Part shown: positions 54,132-64,000 of the stretch, one piece after another
How the letters are laid out: every line of letters starts with the position of its first letter
How positions within the stretch are numbered: the first letter of the stretch is position 1
Assembly (NCBI RefSeq): GCF_014698145.1
Contig: NZ_JACJSM010000020.1
Location: 1 to 64,000 of the forward strand
Direction: 5' to 3'
DNA length: 64,000 nucleotides
DNA from: Oscillatoria sp. FACHB-1406
GTDB taxonomy: Bacteria > Cyanobacteriota > Cyanobacteriia > Cyanobacteriales > Spirulinaceae
Translations under genes and position numbers: made by a program
Notes under the pieces: model-generated
Databases searched by the model: none
What the model saw: the letters and a program-made list of their open reading frames with translations, nothing else
Told to the model about the DNA's origin: nothing

Positions 54132-55541
54132 ATGACTGCTAAGCGGATTTTTATCACGGGGGCAAGTGGCTGCATCGGTCACTATATTGCCGAAACCCTG
54201 ATTCAAAATACCGACCACGAACTCTTTTTGTTGGTCAGAGATCCGAGTAAGCTCAAATTTGACCCAGAAGCCCGCCCGGGCGTAACCGTTCTCAAGGCAG
54301 ATTTGCGCGATATCGAACAATTTCGCGACATTCTGCAAACCATTGAAGTTGCTATTTTAGCGGCGACAGCTTGGGGCGGTTCTGGAGCCGTTTTCGATGT
54401 GAATACGATCAAAACCATTCGCCTCATGAACCTGTTAAATCCGGCAGTCTGCGAACAGGTTCTTTATTTTTCGACCGCCAGCATTCTCAATCGCAATAAC
54501 GAACTCTTACCCCAAGCCGGACAAATGGGAACGGAATATATTCGTTCTAAGTACGATTGTTTCCGTCAATTGCCCCGCCTCGCGATCGCACCAAAAATCA
54601 CAATTCTCTATCCTACCCTCGTTCTCGGCGGCGATGCCAACCATCCCTACTCCCATCTCTCTTCGGGTTTAGCCGGAGTCGTGAAATGGATAAACTTAAT
54701 TCGCTTCTTTAAAGTCGATGCCGGTTTTCACTTCATCCACGCCAAAGATATCGCCGAAGTCGTTCGCCACCTTACTGAGAATCCCCCCATCGCCGAAATT
54801 CCCGGCAGCCTCAGCGAAAAATCGCTCCGCAAAAAAGTGCTGGGCGTTCCCGCCATTACCGTCAACCAAGCCGTCGAAGAAATCTGCGCCTATCTCAACA
54901 AGCGCATTTACTTTCGGCTTCCCTTAACAATGGGGTTAGCGAATTTTTTCATTGCACTATTTCGCGTTCAAATGGCTCCTTGGGATCGCTTTTGTCTCAG
55001 CTATCGCCACTTCACCCACCAAGATCCCGTCACCCCCAGTACCTACGGACTCCCGACTTATTGCGCTACCTTTGACGACGTTTTGAGAATTCACGGGATT
55101 ACTCCCGGCGGCGACAAGCAGAGTGGGAGAGTGGGAGATGGAGAGAGTGGGAGAGTGGGAGAGTGGGAGAGTGGGAGAGTGGGAGATGGGGAAGTGGAAA
55201 AATCCTTGTCAGTTGAGCCTTCTTTGCCTACTCCGAATTTGGAGTTAGAAGAGCCAAAGTCCCTAGCTGTAACCGATACTTCGCTCCCTACTCCCGATTT
55301 GAAGCAAGAAGCGGAAAAATCTTTACCTGTAAGCGCTCCTTCGACGAGCGCACCGATATCGGAATCGAATTCCGCGATCGCATCGTCAGAACCTCTTAGA
55401 AATAACAGCCCAGAAACAACGCCAGATATCCCATTAGACGAGTTGCCCTTTCTCGATCCCACCCTTCGCGACGATACCTCCAGCGATGAGGAAAAACTAC
55501 ACCTTTCCGATGAGATAAAAAGCGTGCGGGTAGAGGATTGA
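54132..55541 (+). CDS. NAD-dependent epimerase/dehydratase with repeat-expanded C-terminus
   Basis: The 469-residue protein has an extended SDR domain in the first ~325 residues: ITGASGCIGHYIAE (Rossmann GxxGxxG), the active-site YIRSKYD with a Ser (STASILN) and Lys, and a C-terminal substrate region. From about 335 a GGAGAGTGG microsatellite encodes SGRVGDGE/WESGRVGD repeats, followed by ~120 acidic, proline-rich, apparently disordered residues. The SDR reaction is not determined; the tail has no counterpart in the family. It follows hemE and could share its transcript. Confidence 0.75.
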   Translation: MTAKRIFITGASGCIGHYIAETLIQNTDHELFLLVRDPSKLKFDPEARPGVTVLKADLRDIEQFRDILQTIEVAILAATAWGGSGAVFDVNTIKTIRLMNLLNPAVCEQVLYFSTASILNRNNELLPQAGQMGTEYIRSKYDCFRQLPRLAIAPKITILYPTLVLGGDANHPYSHLSSGLAGVVKWINLIRFFKVDAGFHFIHAKDIAEVVRHLTENPPIAEIPGSLSEKSLRKKVLGVPAITVNQAVEEICAYLNKRIYFRLPLTMGLANFFIALFRVQMAPWDRFCLSYRHFTHQDPVTPSTYGLPTYCATFDDVLRIHGITPGGDKQSGRVGDGESGRVGEWESGRVGDGEVEKSLSVEPSLPTPNLELEEPKSLAVTDTSLPTPDLKQEAEKSLPVSAPSTSAPISESNSAIASSEPLRNNSPETTPDIPLDELPFLDPTLRDDTSSDEEKLHLSDEIKSVRVED

Positions 55542-56747: not shown

Positions 56748-57482
56748 ATGAGTGAGCCATTAACTTCAGACAGTCTCAGCATCGATCGCCCAATCTTGAA
56801 CGATTGCTGGAATCAGATTGGGGTAATGGGCGATCGCTCCTGTGGCGAACTGGCAACCGTAATCCATTGCCACGACTGCTCAGTCTTTGCGGCGGCTGGC
56901 GATCGCTTACTGGAGAGAGAACCTCCCGTCAATTATCTAAACGAGTGGATCGATATTCTCGCTGAAACCCCCGTCGATCTAGAGGGGACAGAAAGCGACG
57001 AGGCGATCGTCCGCACAGCCGAAGCCATCTCCGTCATGCTGTTTGGCCTGGGAAATGAACGATTAGCCCTTCCCGTTAAGGTCTTGCAAGAAGTCACCTC
57101 ACCTTGCATCATTCAACCTCTGCCCCATCGCAGCAACGAATTATTTTTAGGACTGGTTAATATTCGCGGCGAAACACTGCTTTGCGCTTCCCTGTGCCAT
57201 CTTTTAAATTTGGAATCTTCTGAGGAGACTTCCCTCACGCTCAACGCTATCAATACAAAACGCATGATGGTAGCAGGACAAGGAGACGATAAATGGGTGT
57301 TTCCGGTGGATGAAGTGTATGGCGTGTACCGCTTTCACCTTTCGGAATTAAGAGATGCACCTGTCGTCATTAGCAAAGCCGCTGAAGCTTACACCCAAGG
57401 AATTATTTATTGGCAGGGCAAAAAAGTGAATTATCTCGACTCCGAATTGTTGTTTTACACGCTTAATCACAAGATTTTGTAG
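56748..57482 (+). CDS. CheW-like coupling protein, WspD type
   Basis: The 244-residue protein begins with a short cysteine-rich region (DCWNQIGVMGDRSCGEL, HCHDCSVF, LLEREPP), which is characteristic of WspD-type CheW proteins. It continues with a CheW domain (about 90-240; ALPVKVLQEV, GLVNIRGETLLCASL, FPVDEVYGV). It would couple the receptor to the CheA kinase. It opens the chemosensory operon, ending 5 bp before cheA. The cysteine pattern may bind a metal; this is inference. Confidence 0.88.
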   Translation: MSEPLTSDSLSIDRPILNDCWNQIGVMGDRSCGELATVIHCHDCSVFAAAGDRLLEREPPVNYLNEWIDILAETPVDLEGTESDEAIVRTAEAISVMLFGLGNERLALPVKVLQEVTSPCIIQPLPHRSNELFLGLVNIRGETLLCASLCHLLNLESSEETSLTLNAINTKRMMVAGQGDDKWVFPVDEVYGVYRFHLSELRDAPVVISKAAEAYTQGIIYWQGKKVNYLDSELLFYTLNHKIL

Positions 57483-57487
57483 CCAAT

Positions 57488-60400
57488 ATGAGTGAGTATT
57501 CCAAGCTAGAACTATTTCGCCAGGAAATTGAAGCTCGGGTTGTCATCTTAAAAAAATCGCTCCCGGTTCTGAAAACGCAACCCTTAGCCATGACTGAACT
57601 AGAGCAAGCTGCTCGAGCGGCTCACTCGGCTTGGGGGACGGCTCGAATTGTTAAGATGGAGGTCGCTTCTAACCTGGCACAGTTGATGAAAGAATGCTTG
57701 ATTGCCGCTCGGGATAAAGCTGTTACCTTGCAGGAGGAGCAAATTGATGTTTTACTTCACGCTAGCGATTTGCTCTTGAGTATAAGCCAAGTTGCTAATG
57801 GAGAGTTTGAACGTTGGATGAGCGAGCGTTCCTGGGATTTAGCGACGACTCAGAAAGCGATTTCGCTCGTCCTCAACTCGGGCTCGGCAGTTGCATCTGT
57901 TAGCCTTCAGGAGCAAGAAACTGGCGACAGAGTAACGCTTGTGGAGGAGCAAGCCATCCCAGAAACGCACCAGCCCTTAAGCGAAGAAACTCTGGCACAG
58001 CAACAGGAGAGTGCAGAACTCAGCGAAGAGTTGCCTCGCGTCATCTCTGCATCCTCTCATGCTGCGATCGCTCCCAGCACGGACACCGCCAATCGAGCCA
58101 TCACCCCAACTCCCCCAGCTACCCTCAGTATTGATGATGCCTCGATGATGGATCTGTTTCGCTTGGAAGCTGAGGCGCAAGTTACCCTCCTCAACGACGG
58201 ACTCCTAGACTTAGAGAACAATCCTCAATCGGCCCAGGCCTTAGAAACCTTAATGCGAGCCGCTCACTCGATTAAGGGGGCTGCCCGGATTGTAGGACTC
58301 GATGCGATCGTCAATTTAGCTCACGGAATGGAAGACTGTTTTGTTGCCGCTCAAAATCAAACGATCGCGCTCGATCCCGACAACGTAGATGTACTATTGC
58401 AGGGGGTGGATTTGCTACAAGCGATCGGTCAAACGAGCGACGCTAAACTCCCCGGTTGGCTTGCCCAACAGAGTGCCAATTTTGAAGCGCTACGAGTGGC
58501 GATCGCTGCTATTCTCAACCCGGGCGCGAAACCCGTACTCGATCGCGAAACAGAGAAACCAGCCCCTCCATCTTCCCTATCTGTTGTTCCTGTTCCCTCC
58601 CGATCGCAGCCAACAGAAATCCCAAGCGAAGCCAATATCGAGCCAATTCCAACTGTCACCGTTGCCATCAAGCCTCAATCGGCTCCATCGATCGCAAGCG
58701 TAGCAATTCAGGAACGTCCAAAAGAGGCGGCATCCTCCAGTGCTTTATCCGAACAAACCGCTACCCAAAATCGAGTCGTGCGAATCAGTGCGGAAAATTT
58801 GAACCGGATTATGGGTTTAGCCGGAGAGTCCTTAATTGAAGCGAACTGGTTGCAACCCCACGCAGATTCAATGATGTCATTGAAATGGCGTTTGGCTGAG
58901 CTTGCCAGAACGCTCGAACAGTTGGAAGATAGTCTCGAGCGCGGAACCTATCGGCAAGAAGGCAAAGAATACCTCGCCCAAGCCCGCAACCAGGAACAGG
59001 AGTGTCTCGATCTGTTGAGCGATCGCTTGGGTGAATTAGAATTGTATGCTCAACGCACGGCCAACTTATCCGATCGCCTCTATCGGGAAGTGATTACCTC
59101 CCATATGCGTCCCTTTGCCGATGGCGTGCAAGGCTTTCCGCGCATGATTCGGGATTTAGCACGCCAATTGAACAAGCAAGTCAAGTTAGATATTGTGGGG
59201 AAGGCAACGCCTGTCGATCGCGACATTCTCAAGAAGTTAGAAGCCCCACTCACTCACATTTTACGCAATGCCACCGACCACGGCATTGAATTACCCGAAG
59301 AACGGATGGCAGTAGGAAAACCCGCTGAAGGCACAATTCGTTTAGAAGCCTTTCACCGGGGGGCGATGCTAGCGATTACCGTTACTGACGATGGGAAAGG
59401 CATCTCTCCAGAACAGTTGCGCTCCAAAGCGATCGACAAAAACCTGGTAACGTCAGAAATGGCTGCTCGAATGAGCGATACCGAACTGCTAGAGTTTCTG
59501 TTTTTACCCGGATTTTCCACCGCCCAACAAATCACAGAAATCTCGGGCCGAGGGGTGGGACTCGACATTGCTAAAAGTATGGCGCAGGAAGTTGGGGGGA
59601 CAGTGCGCGCTACGTCCCAACCGGGTAAGGGGACGAGTTTCCACTTTCAACTGCCTCTAACGCTGTCGGTGGTTCGCACGCTTCTGGTGGAAATTTCTGG
59701 GAAACCCTATGCCGTTCCTCTAGCCCGAATCGACCAAATTGTCACGGTGGAGCGATCGGAGATTTCTGAGGTGGAGAATCGCCAATATTTTACGATGAAT
59801 CAGCAAAATATCGGTCTGATTGCTGCTCGCCAAGTTTTAGAATTACCGGAACCGCCTCCTCATTCGGGTGCGCTGTCGGTGGCGATCATCAGTGATGGAA
59901 GCAATCCTTATGGTTTAGTCGTCGATCGGTTTCTGGGCGAGCGCGATTTGGTGGTTAGACCGCTCGATCCTCGCTTGGGCAAAGTACCGGATATTAGCGC
60001 TACATCCTTGATGGGAGACGGTTCGCCCATTCTAATTATTGATGTATCGGACATCGTGCGCTCAATGGATGCCCTCCTCCATGCTGGAGGACTCACAAAA
60101 GTTGAGGTTGAAGCCCAGGAAGTCATCCGAGACAAGCGTAAGAGAGTTTTAGTGGTGGATGATTCCATCACCGTGCGGGAAATGGAACGCAAACTTCTAG
60201 AAAATCGAGGTTACAAGGTGGATATTGCCGTTAATGGAATGGAGGGGTGGAATGCGGTTCGGACGAACGCCTATGATTTGGTAATCAGTGATATTGATAT
60301 GCCGCGTATGAATGGAATTGAATTCGTCAAGCAAATGAGGAGTCATCCTCGTTTGCATTCGATGCCAGTAATTATTGTCTCCTATCGCGATCGCGAGGAA

Positions 60401-60505
60401 GATCGGATTGCGGGGCTGGAGGCGGGTGCTGATTACTACTTAACCAAGAGTAGTTTTCATGATGAAACGTTGATTAATGCTGTTATGGACTTGGTTGGGC
60501 GTTAA
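57488..60505 (+). CDS. CheA hybrid histidine kinase with C-terminal receiver, WspE type
   Basis: The 1005-residue kinase has two Hpt domains (H46 in [13 protein letters not shown] and H260 in [13 protein letters not shown]), a linker, dimerisation and HATPase (LRNATDHG 592-599, [14 protein letters not shown]), a CheW domain (about 728-860) and a receiver (D935 in [10 protein letters not shown]). The first Hpt lacks the usual lysine after HS, so its phosphorylation is uncertain. The layout, CheA fused to a receiver, fits WspE. It would phosphorylate the operon's CheB and cyclase response regulator. It lies 2 bp before cheB. Confidence 0.93.
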
Positions 60506-60507
60506 CG

Positions 60508-61542
60508 ATGAGAATTGCAATTGTTAACGATCTGGCGATCGCTGTCGGGGCAATCCAACGGGTGCTACAAACCGTTCCCGACTATCAGGTGATTTGGACG
60601 GCCAGAGATGGGGCCCAAGCGGTTGCTAAATGCGCTCGAGACACGCCAGACCTCATCTTAATGGATTTGCAGATGCCCGTGATGGATGGGGTAGAAGCCA
60701 CTCGTCGCATCATGAAAGCTTCTCCCTGTGCGATTTTAATCGTCACCGCCAATGCTAAGCAAAGTGTCGCTAAAGTCTATGAAGCGATGGAACATGGCGC
60801 GCGAGATGTCGTGGATACGCCCGTCCTGAGTCAAACTGACAGTGGCAAAATGGCAGACGAACTACTTGCCAAAATAGCCCGAATTGGCAAGTTGCTGAAA
60901 CACTCCCCATCAAACTTGAAGGAAAAAACCCTCGCCCCATTCTCTCAATCGGAGCGATATCGGGGTTCATCTTACACCGTACCCTTAGTTGCGATCGGGT
61001 CATCCACCGGGGGGCCGAAAGCCTTAGCCGCGATTTTGTCCCAATTACCGCCGAATTTCGGCGCTGCGATCGCGATTGTCCAGCACGTCGATGTCCAATT
61101 CTCGGCTGGATTCGTGGATTGGTTGAACCAGCAAACCCGATTACCCGTCCGAATTGCGGTGGCGGGCGATCGTTTAGAGAAAGGAACGGTTGTGGTTGCT
61201 GGTACTAACGATCACCTGTACTTGAAACCTGACTTAACCCTCGACTACACCGCAGATCCGATTGATTATTGCTACCGTCCTTCTGTCGATGTATTTTTCA
61301 AAAGTCTGGCCCAGCACTGGACTCGTCGGGGAACGGCTGTTTTGCTAACAGGAATGGGGCGAGATGGGGCAGAGGGATTAGGTGCATTGCGACATCGAGG
61401 CTGGCACACGATCGCTCAAAATAAGGAGAGTTGCGTCGTGTATGGGATGCCTAGAGCGGCGGTTGAATTGAATGCTGCTGTCGAGATCTTATCGCTCGAC
61501 GCGATCGCGACAACCCTCCTCCAAAAAAATCATTCATTCTGA
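60508..61542 (+). CDS. CheB protein-glutamate methylesterase, WspF type
   Basis: The 344-residue protein has a receiver (D53 in [13 protein letters not shown]) and a methylesterase domain with the triad S166 (GSSTGGP), H193 (VQHVD) and D286 (GMGRDGAEG). It would remove methyl groups from the receptor to adapt the pathway. The receiver has a single acidic residue at the usual VDD site (IVND), a small deviation. It overlaps the operon with a 2-bp gap from cheA and 14 bp to the next gene. No cheR is in the window. Confidence 0.92.
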
Positions 61543-61556
61543 TTTAGACAACTCCG

Positions 61557-63068
61557 ATGGACGAGCAAATAACCGTTTTACTAATAGACGATCAATCCAT
61601 CATCGCTGAAACCATCCGTCGAATGCTCGCGCCCGAACCCGACATCGAATTTCACTATTGCAGCGATCCGACTCAAGCCTTGGATATTGCGGAGGAATGT
61701 CAGCCAACGGTCATTTTACAAGACTTAGTAATGCCCCAAATGGAAGGGTTATTATTAGTCCGGTTTCTGCGCTCCAAAGACGCTTGCACCTGCAATACAC
61801 CGCTAATCGTACTCTCGAGTAAAGAGGAACCCACAATCAAAGTTAAAGCATTTGAGTTGGGTGCTAATGATTACTTAGTCAAACTCCCCGATCGCCTAGA
61901 GTTGATTGCTCGTATTCGCTACCATTCCAAAGCTTACCTAAACTTTTTAAAGCGTCAGGAAGCCGAGGCTTTGTTTAAAGCCGAAATTATGCGCCAAGCG
62001 GCTTACATCGAGCAAGTCGGTAAAGTAACAACCGCCGCCTCCGATGTGGAACGCGATGCCTTTCAAGCCGACGCTTTGGCAGAAGTTGCTAAACGAAGTG
62101 ACGAACTGGGGCAACTGGCACGGGTGTTTACCAATATGGTTAAAACCGTCAAAACGCGGGAAAAAGAATTAACCGATGCCAACCTTCAGTTAGAGTCCTT
62201 ATTGAAAGCTTACGGGCGATTTGTCCCTCACGAATACCTACGCTTCCTTCGCAAAGAAAGCATTACGGATGTTCAGCTTGGCGATCATGTCAGCAAAATT
62301 ATGGCAGTCATGTTCAGCGATATTCGCTCGTTTACCACGCTTGCTGAAGGCATGACACCGCAAGAAAACTTTAACTTTGTTAATGCTTATCTCAAGCGAG
62401 TCAGTCCAGAAATTCGCAATCATTACGGCCTCATCGTCAAATTTTTAGGGGATGGGATGATGGCCGTTTTTCCTGACGGTGCAGATGATGCGGTAGCGGC
62501 TGGAGTTGCTAAACTTAAGCGGGTTCAGGACTACAACGAACAACGTATCGCCAGAGGCTACTCTCCCCTCAATATTGGGATTGGTATCCATGTAGGACAC
62601 ATGATGTTAGGCATGATTGGTGAAGAAAGCCGGATGGAAGGAGATGCTTTATCAGATACTGTCAATTTAACGGCTCGTTTGGAAGGGCTGACCAAGTTTT
62701 ATGGCGTATCTCTACTAATTTCCGAGCAAGCGCTGCAACATCTTAGCCATCCCGAAAAATATCAAATCCGGTTTTTGGATCGGGCAACTGTTAAGGGGCG
62801 AAATGAACCCATTGGAGTTTATGAAGTGCTGAATGCAGAAATTGAAGCCAAGCGGCTATTAAAATTACAAACCCAGCCAGATTTTGAGCAGGGATTGGAG
62901 TTTTATCGGAGTTGCGATCTAACGGCGGCGAAAAGGTGTTTTGAAAAAGTGCTTGCTGTGAATTCTTCGGATAAAACGGTTCAACTTTATCTGGAGCGAG
63001 TGGAAACACTGATGAACAAGGGAGTTCCTGAAAACTGGAATGGGGTCTGGGCTTTTAGTGAAAAGTAG
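61557..63068 (+). CDS. Response regulator with class III adenylyl cyclase output
   Basis: The 503-residue protein has a receiver (1-125; D56 in ILQDLVMP, SSKEEPTIK, ANDYLVKLPD) very like WspR, a HAMP-like/coiled segment (SDELGQLARVFTNM, REKEL, about 175-215) and a class III cyclase domain (about 245-425). Catalytic residues are all present: metal ligands D255 and D299, K295 and D363 at the positions that select adenine, and transition-state N370 and R374. A TPR-like pair of helices closes the protein. It should make cAMP when phosphorylated by the operon's CheA. No GGDEF domain is present. Confidence 0.92.
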   Translation: MDEQITVLLIDDQSIIAETIRRMLAPEPDIEFHYCSDPTQALDIAEECQPTVILQDLVMPQMEGLLLVRFLRSKDACTCNTPLIVLSSKEEPTIKVKAFELGANDYLVKLPDRLELIARIRYHSKAYLNFLKRQEAEALFKAEIMRQAAYIEQVGKVTTAASDVERDAFQADALAEVAKRSDELGQLARVFTNMVKTVKTREKELTDANLQLESLLKAYGRFVPHEYLRFLRKESITDVQLGDHVSKIMAVMFSDIRSFTTLAEGMTPQENFNFVNAYLKRVSPEIRNHYGLIVKFLGDGMMAVFPDGADDAVAAGVAKLKRVQDYNEQRIARGYSPLNIGIGIHVGHMMLGMIGEESRMEGDALSDTVNLTARLEGLTKFYGVSLLISEQALQHLSHPEKYQIRFLDRATVKGRNEPIGVYEVLNAEIEAKRLLKLQTQPDFEQGLEFYRSCDLTAAKRCFEKVLAVNSSDKTVQLYLERVETLMNKGVPENWNGVWAFSEK

Positions 63069-63409
63069 TTCTAGCGAGCCTGCCGGTGTAAAATCATTCT
63101 CATCGGTCAAACAGGCTATATCGTAGGGTGAGCATTGCCGTTTCTGGGATTGAACCTAAAAAAAGCATCAAGTCGGCCATGCCCACCCGCGTGATTTTGT
63201 CAAGCCTGAGTAGATAAGATCCGCAAAATCGCCCATTATAGCACTACGCAGATCGGTTAGGACATTAAGTAGGGTGGGCAGCGCCCACCAGCCAATGCTT
63301 TAAGCTTTAGAGAGCGTTCATTCTTTGGTGAGTAGCGCTATATTAAGAACATCACCCCGTCAGCCTTAACTTAGCTGGAGTTTAGACTAAGCAGACAGCT
63401 TGATTGACT
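63069..63409. other. Intergenic region between converging genes
   Basis: No gene is seen in these 341 bases between the converging cyclase and receptor genes. They contain GTAGGGTGAGC and GTAGGGTGGGCAGCGCCCACC palindromic repeat units (63273-63294), related to the family B repeats. Confidence 0.5.
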
Positions 63410-64000
63410 TTACGATTTGGAGCGAGAGACTTCTTTGCGCAATCCCTGGGCTGCATCATAGAGTCGATCTAAAGCGCTATTGGTTTCCCGTAGAGCGTCA
63501 ACGGTTTGATGAGAGGCTTGAGCGAGTTGCTCCATTGCTTCGCTAATTTGCTGCGCTCCCTCTGATTGTTCTTCCACACTTCGACTAACCTGCTCGAATC
63601 GCGGGGGTAAACCTTGGACTTGATTGATGACTTTCGCAATCTGGCTGCCGATCTTGCTGACTCGATCGACACTAACACTTACAGAATGATTGAACTTATC
63701 CATTTCCATGACCCCAACCGTAACCGCCGATTGCATATCTTTCACGATTTGCTCGATTTCTAAGGTGGCAACCGCCGTCTGATTGGCAAGCCGTCGAATT
63801 TCTCGCGCAACCACTGCAAAGCCCGCACCATACTCTCCCGCTTTTTCAGCTTCAATCGCCGCGTTCAGTGACAAAAGACTCGTCCGATCTGCCACTTTAG
63901 TAATGGTGGTAACAACGTTGTTGATGTTTCCAGCTTTGGTATTCATTACTCCCAATTTTGAGGAGATAGAGGTGGTAGCTTCGCTCAGTTGGCGCATCGC
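63410..64000 (-). CDS. Methyl-accepting chemotaxis protein, C-terminal part (cut by window edge)
   Basis: The visible ~197 residues are the signalling hairpin and trailing helices of a chemoreceptor: [33 protein letters not shown], and a long coiled coil after it. The [11 protein letters not shown] form of the tip is typical of WspA-like receptors. The ligand-binding and membrane parts lie beyond the right edge. It converges on the chemosensory operon and would feed it. Confidence 0.88.

Follow-up and report, generated by a model that had tools for sequence, protein, structure and literature searches.

The 64,000-nucleotide window analysed here, positions 1 to 64,000 of the forward strand of contig NZ_JACJSM010000020.1 of Oscillatoria sp. 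FACHB-1406, contains near its right end a Wsp-type chemosensory locus whose response regulator joins a WspR-type receiver to a class III nucleotidyl cyclase. We regard it as probable that a complete Wsp array phosphorylates Asp56 of this receiver, and that the fused class III adenylyl cyclase controls cyclic AMP (cAMP) in response. At the level of sequence, this reading draws on the gene set, on the kinship of the receiver to WspR, on intact catalytic and phospho-acceptor residues, and on the conserved pairing of the regulator with the Wsp operon.

The response regulator and its Wsp locus

The preliminary description of this DNA, made from its letters, had set out a row of genes for a WspD-like CheW, a WspE-like CheA with receiver, a WspF-like CheB and a response regulator, with a receptor of the WspA type converging on them. 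The open reading frames (ORFs) were found at those places, and the Pfam matches and identities to known Wsp proteins agree with the assignments (Table 1). The WspR-like character of the receiver, also proposed there, is borne out by alignment, since it is 61-62% identical to the Azoarcus and Mesorhizobium receivers over residues 5 or 7 to 136, and three more proteobacterial WspR receivers gave 59, 64 and 66%, a range of 59-66% across five WspR proteins. Among PDB chains, its first two matches are WspR structures (3e-46 for 3bre, then 7e-45), followed by PleD at 1e-16. The homology to WspR ends at residue 136-139 of the regulator. Pfam detected Guanylate_cyc in the protein and no GGDEF domain, the output of a cyclic-di-GMP-type regulator, so that the replacement of GGDEF by a class III cyclase, as first described, also stands.

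When the genome was queried with Azoarcus WspR, the window receiver (59%) was the sole WspR-like receiver found; no second one was detected with this query, the other receivers reaching at most 36%. The better GGDEF matches to Azoarcus WspR align over the GGDEF part alone. An orphan GGDEF-type WspR elsewhere in the genome was considered as the true output and rejected, because the best GGDEF matches lack a WspR-like receiver and no other receiver exceeded 36%; a separate WspR-GGDEF protein is the less likely to be the real partner because the search found no WspR-like receiver but the window's. The strongest GGDEF match to WspR in the genome, C8:12755-13324 (-), contains an internal TAA stop.

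The remaining components were compared with the annotated wsp operons of Azoarcus KH32C and Mesorhizobium japonicum, both of which end in a GGDEF-type regulator. The contig (C20, 101347 bases) was read on past the window end at 64000, and all of WspA to WspF are present at the locus (a WspA receptor, two CheW proteins, a CheR with TPR repeats, a CheA-receiver kinase and a CheB), three of them (WspA, WspC and WspB) lying partly or wholly outside the window. Identity to the proteobacterial counterparts is 35-36% for WspD (Azoarcus and Mesorhizobium), 47% for WspE over residues 219-1004, 50-54% for WspF, 35-37% for WspC and 34-42% for WspB. The whole WspA-like receptor has 529 aa, reaches contig position 64999 and combines a 4HB_MCP sensor with a signalling domain of the methyl-accepting chemotaxis protein (MCP) type. 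Its signalling half, the only half to which this figure applies, is 52% identical to WspA of the two comparison operons; with Azoarcus WspA as query it was the top match in the whole genome (52%, next 29%), in keeping with the receptor type first suggested. The genome has three matches to the CheB domain, and WspF in the window is the only one to span the full CheB profile. The ORFs and the catalytic and signalling motifs of the operon are intact, and the receiver-cyclase ORF begins 14 bases past wspF.

The two Hpt stretches of the WspE-like kinase have candidate phosphorylation sites at His46 and His260, taken from motif positions. The N-terminal one (His46) is additional to the canonical His260, and the alignment to proteobacterial WspE starts only at residue 219.

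Table 1. Features of the Wsp locus in the window and in the adjoining part of contig C20.
Feature	Position	Strand	Match or remark
WspD-like CheW coupling protein, 244 aa	56748..57482	+	Pfam CheW, 4e-19
WspE-like CheA-receiver hybrid kinase, 1005 aa	57488..60505	+	Pfam Hpt (2 stretches), HATPase_c, CheW, Response_reg
WspF-like CheB methylesterase with receiver, 344 aa	60508..61542	+	Pfam CheB, 4e-60; NCBIfam CheB above cut-off
Response regulator, 503 aa	61557..63068	+	WspR-type receiver, helical linker, class III nucleotidyl cyclase, C-terminal extension
WspR-like receiver, residues 5-136	61569..61964	+	Phospho-acceptor Asp56
Linker	61965..62300	+	Weak HAMP-like match (residues 156-197), below Pfam cut-off
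Class III cyclase domain	62301..62810	+	PF00211, 67 bits; D255, D299, K295, D363, N370, R374
WspA-like receptor, C-terminal part	63410..64000	-	MCP cut at window end
WspC, CheR with TPR repeats, 439 aa	contig 65336-66655, past window edge	-	
WspB, CheW, 160 aa	contig 66636-67118, past window edge	-	

Conservation of the regulator and nature of its product

The preliminary description had also raised the matter of whether other cyanobacteria keep this operon; they do, with exceptions (L014, L025, G064, G099 and G118). Genes were called by simple ORF calling in two sets, namely the named loci, which are the best 80 of 150 confirmed matches to the regulator, and a sample of 388 genomes of the window's class. 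These sets overlap, and their loci are therefore not independent samples. Among the best 80 matches, 16 loci (L013-L028), all from cyanobacteria, match the regulator over its full length with 72-88% identity. Except at L014, wspF is found upstream of the regulator, either adjacent to it or separated by a single MCP gene (15 of the 16), and eight loci show the complete collinear order B-C-A-D-E-F-cyclase, the others being cut by contig ends or missing a gene.

In the 388-genome sample, the E-value limit of the CheB search was passed by 69 genomes; 50 of these carry a WspF-type CheB of at least 49% identity (with internal stops in one, G118), and the remaining 19 match at 35-41%. The full receiver-cyclase regulator was found at 28 loci in 25 genomes, and two further genomes match outside the receiver only. 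Twenty-five of the 28 regulators adjoin wspF on the same strand, one of them with an MCP gene between. All seven genes are on one strand in 18 of 22 loci examined (L140, L151, L198-L217), while L207 is without B and C, L209 and L215 are truncated by the ends of their contigs, and L151 consists of wspF and the cyclase only. Judged by these genomes, the pairing of the receiver-cyclase with the Wsp operon is conserved across cyanobacteria. Residues D11, D12, D56 and K109 of the receiver are invariant in 26 of 26 aligned orthologues, which are the window's regulator and 25 others from the 28 loci, G265:C95 and G326 being omitted as incomplete.

The conserved pairing bears on a different reading, that another response regulator is the true output of the array and the cyclase is a bystander with an inherited receiver. 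The WspE kinase has a receiver and an additional Hpt of its own, so that a phosphorelay to other regulators is possible, and the genome has many receivers. We nevertheless hold this reading unlikely, given the sole WspR-like receiver found in the genome, its place directly behind wspF, and the retention of wspF beside the regulator in both sets of loci.

In class III cyclases, two aspartates bind metal, a Lys/Asp pair contacts the purine and selects adenine, and an Asn/Arg pair serves the transition state. This adenylyl cyclase residue set is complete in the window's regulator: the K295 and D363 singled out beforehand are at their predicted positions, D255, D299, N370 and R374 are also present, and all six are invariant in the 26 orthologues. 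An adenylyl cyclase is therefore the expected output and the best reading of the domain's sequence. The array would instead control cGMP if the cyclase made cGMP or a mixed product, and the top PDB match of the domain, 2w01 (PDB label adenylate cyclase), belongs to the same broad group of class III enzymes; we take it to be the guanylyl cyclase Cya2. However, this closest enzyme has Glu at the position of Lys295, Lys is found there in 6fht, presumably a chimera converted to cAMP synthesis, and the Lys295/Asp363 pair with its adenine role does not vary among the orthologues, which makes a cGMP product quite improbable.

From residue 112-152 onwards, the regulator is 54-63% identical to cyanobacterial proteins whose match excludes the receiver (L029-L036), and these cyclases also show the HAMP-like linker match. 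Since the C-terminal part resembles proteins that match without a receiver, it appears that an existing cyclase module, complete with its own linker and C-terminal extension, was fused to a receiver of WspR type.

The D-E-F-cyclase block of the window's species is inverted relative to B-C-A, in contrast to its collinear relatives, and the gene order is what a single inversion of that block would give. Such a change may have altered regulation, but a degenerate remnant, or a cyclase kept off and acting mainly through protein contact, is very hard to reconcile with intact ORFs, intact catalytic and signalling motifs, and catalytic residues that are invariant among the orthologues.

Returning to the reading of an array that controls cAMP, the receptor WspA would respond to a presumed stimulus, with WspB and WspD as coupling proteins and WspC and WspF for adaptation, and the kinase WspE would transfer phosphate to Asp56. 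The helical linker would join the receiver to the adenylyl cyclase that takes the place of GGDEF. Phosphorylation and dimerisation of the receiver would then activate the enzyme by bringing together or realigning two cyclase domains, and the predicted product, cAMP, would rise.

Exchange of outputs and candidate cAMP effectors

A receiver-only search of the 388 genomes found 62 WspR-type receivers in 58 genomes. Their outputs are the window-type cyclase (28), a histidine kinase (22), a PAS-kinase hybrid (1), SpoIIE (6) and GGDEF (3); the remaining two are the G123 regulator, with a higher-scoring class III cyclase of a different type that has the same Lys/Asp pair, and one without recognised output. 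Of the 34 regulators lacking the window-type cyclase, 13 were analysed with Pfam, and the others were assigned by similarity to those; 12 of the 13 showed an output domain, and the G007 protein showed the receiver only. Several of the kinase-type receivers have no adjacent Wsp genes. A receiver tree of 66 rows (including 27 of the 28 cyclase rows and five proteobacterial WspR), in which 29 of 62 branches are starred and support is thus limited, gathered the cyclase receivers into a single starred group of 28 that also contains one SpoIIE receiver. The seven output labels require at least nine changes on this tree, against a mean of 32.6 when shuffled. Given two types of class III cyclase and scattered SpoIIE cases, the sequences indicate that WspR-type receivers in cyanobacteria have swapped outputs more than once. 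The Wsp core is thought of as a cyclic-di-GMP device, yet in cyanobacteria it is mostly tied to other outputs.

At L148, L149 and L159, a fusion of a WspR-type receiver to a SpoIIE phosphatase directly precedes wspF and is followed by small genes; the arrangement resembles a Wsp-type pathway that acts through a partner-switching phosphatase. In G023, the gene directly downstream of wspF (L141:6470-7537, -) weakly resembles a neurotransmitter-gated ion-channel ligand-binding domain; at 2.4e-5, the match narrowly misses the Pfam cut-off.

Genes that could act on cAMP were found beside several of the related operons. In six (L201, L208, L210, L211, L212 and L213), the gene directly before wspB on the same strand encodes an MscS-type channel whose C-terminal domain binds cyclic nucleotides by its Pfam class, a type that we take to go by the name bCNG. 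Three of these channels were confirmed by Pfam and the other three are 83-88% identical to a confirmed one; a seventh channel operon, G265:C95, was inferred from coordinates. Genome G211 has two channel-bearing operons whose channels are 50% identical to each other. Divergently upstream of seven operons (L208, L210, L211, L212, L214, L216 and L217) is a gene for a SulP-STAS transporter of ~740 aa with a C-terminal cyclic-nucleotide-binding domain; these ORFs had weak single-sequence phmmer scores, and Pfam identified them as genuine SulP-STAS-cNMP_binding proteins. In G178, the gene just downstream of the cyclase (L203:4101-5120, -) encodes a 339-aa protein in which two cyclic-nucleotide-binding stretches were the only features recognised. 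In a Gloeocapsa locus, a 287-aa cyclic-nucleotide-binding protein (L024:7284-8147, -) is encoded immediately ahead of a wspE fragment, but on the other strand.

Two sets of candidates were discarded. The phmmer matches of the cyclic-nucleotide-binding domain to large kinases (L215, L216:14354 and L214:18962) proved by Pfam to be PAS, GAF, ethylene-receptor-like and kinase domains, and ORFs of similar length upstream of wspB were unrelated (an amidohydrolase in L204, an O-antigen ligase in L199 and DUF2330 in L028).

A cyclic-nucleotide-binding gene lies within 5 kb upstream in 9 of 21 cyclase loci and in 0 of 20 other Wsp loci (Fisher p = 0.0013), counted where ~3.7 kb or more of upstream flank was available and with no correction for kinship. 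The cyclase side comprises G000, G336, G205, G190, G211 (twice), G073, G170 (twice), G265:C157, G142, G294, G095, G251, G115, G197, G138, G053, G178, G212:C1 and G064; G288, G291, G265:C95 (which has a channel gene), G270, G326, G118 and G099 were dropped for short flanks or contig edges. On the other side are G087, G225, G203, G217, G051, G339, G098, G329, G212:C2, G230, G040, G054, G025, G023, G342:C92, G342:C98, G348, G295, G165 and G232. In G165, G230 and G232, wspC (with wspB where seen) is reversed and the scanned flank lies past wspC, and in G023 and G342:C92 no WspR-type regulator was identified nearby. Dropped from this side were G018, G123, G151, G137, G347, G319 and G114 for short flanks, G007 with wspF alone, and the kinase-output receivers without adjacent Wsp genes; no cyclic-nucleotide-binding match was found in those of the dropped loci that were scanned. 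Without G064, G165 and G232, which were included because they satisfy the same flank rule, the figures are 9 of 20 and 0 of 18 (p = 0.0013). Outside this count, one (L024) of the three named cyclase loci with sufficient flank (L014, L024 and L025) has such a gene.

The channel family is widespread: 254 of the 388 genomes have a match at an E-value of 1e-40 or below, and some of the matching proteins lack the nucleotide-binding domain. In G197 and G294, close relatives of the operon channel are encoded at other places in the genome. The genes upstream of the cyclase operons are concrete candidates for the site of cAMP action, suggesting that the channels and transporters are effectors of these operons. 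In some relatives the effector is probably the adjoining cyclic-nucleotide-binding channel or transporter. In the window's genome it is most likely a CRP-type regulator encoded elsewhere, where 14 cyclic-nucleotide-binding matches were found, 13 of them above cut-off. A cyclic-nucleotide-gated channel was rejected for this genome, as its two MscS matches had no cNMP-binding match at their places.

A bolder and rather doubtful proposal is that the WspR receiver acts as an exchangeable plug, through which cyanobacteria have repeatedly swapped the output of an otherwise conserved Wsp core, and that the cAMP branch gates the MscS-type channel and/or the SulP-STAS transporter at the membrane. The receptor array would set cAMP, with the channel gene standing first in the operon and the transporter gene divergent from it. 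If true, a chemoreceptor array would control ion flux through cAMP.

Several observations weigh against an array-controlled cAMP pathway or its local effectors. Not every regulator belongs to a complete operon: that of L014 is alone, those of L025 (with ~9 kb of other genes upstream) and G064 are with wspF only, and two of the 28, in G099 and G118, have no wspF within the 1.5 kb examined around the regulator. The nine operons with a cyclic-nucleotide-binding neighbour were found in eight genomes, which belong to four genera and two families, and the number of independent cases is therefore small. The window's contig has no cyclic-nucleotide-binding match, none thus adjoining the operon, and the two MscS matches in the genome cover the channel part only. 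The 5.5 Mb genome has 31 class III cyclase matches against the 14 for cyclic-nucleotide binding, and with that many cyclases the contribution of the operon's enzyme may be only local or minor.

Two repeat arrays were seen on the same contig. An 8-base tandem repeat (AGAGTGGG) occurs nine times at window positions 55120-55190, in the 3' part of a 469-aa ORF at 54132-55541. Outside the window, at ~78268-78743 of C20 (L009:17269-17744), seven 39-nt repeats, 77-100% alike and spaced 71-77 bases, are CRISPR-like; ORF calling had rendered them as a protein with a repeated peptide.

Comparison with known systems

Wsp genes serve other bacteria in surface sensing and in the production of the messenger cyclic-di-GMP. 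The locus shares with the Wsp system of Pseudomonas (WspA-F and WspR) the same six upstream components and an output receiver closest to WspR, but its output is a class III cyclase instead of GGDEF. The usual cyanobacterial order is B-C-A-D-E-F-cyclase, as against A-B-C-D-E-F-R in the Azoarcus and Mesorhizobium operons. Another chemosensory array that raises cAMP is reportedly the Chp/Pil system of Pseudomonas, which controls CyaB; there, however, the cyclase is said to be a separate membrane protein and the array to belong to the type IV pili class, whereas here the cyclase is the response regulator itself.

A survey of CheR-TPR clusters (PMC3447774) lists, in the part considered here, a mononucleotidyl cyclase among the outputs of ACF pathways. 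The present locus resembles these in clustering a CheR-TPR gene with a multidomain regulator, and by the definition given in that part it has a chemosensory core with a multidomain response regulator as output; the cyclase outputs are not linked there to WspR-type receivers or to cyanobacterial Wsp operons.

The closest precedent is the Wsp cassette of Phormidesmis priestleyi BC1401, for which PMC4971617 (2016) describes, in its passages on the cassette, the same gene set with a class 3 adenylate cyclase in the position of WspR. As described in those passages, the Phormidesmis cassette lies on one strand and is preceded by a gene for a cyclic nucleotide binding protein, while in Oscillatoria D-E-F-cyclase is inverted relative to B-C-A and no cyclic-nucleotide-binding gene is adjacent. 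The main text of that paper does not contain the words mechanosensitive, channel, MscS or cAMP, and among the open-licence PMC papers listed by literature searches, titles and abstract starts showed no test of the receiver-cyclase and no link between a Wsp operon and a cyclic-nucleotide-gated channel. The Wsp-cyclase arrangement is thus already in print for a related cyanobacterium, and what is new here is the relationship between the receiver and WspR, the census of outputs and the effector candidates in relatives. The same passages of PMC4971617 report a search for WspR homologues elsewhere and call the regulators and effectors unclear. Because the cyclase itself carries the WspR receiver, it is the counterpart of WspR and not a substitute beside it, which addresses the point left open there.

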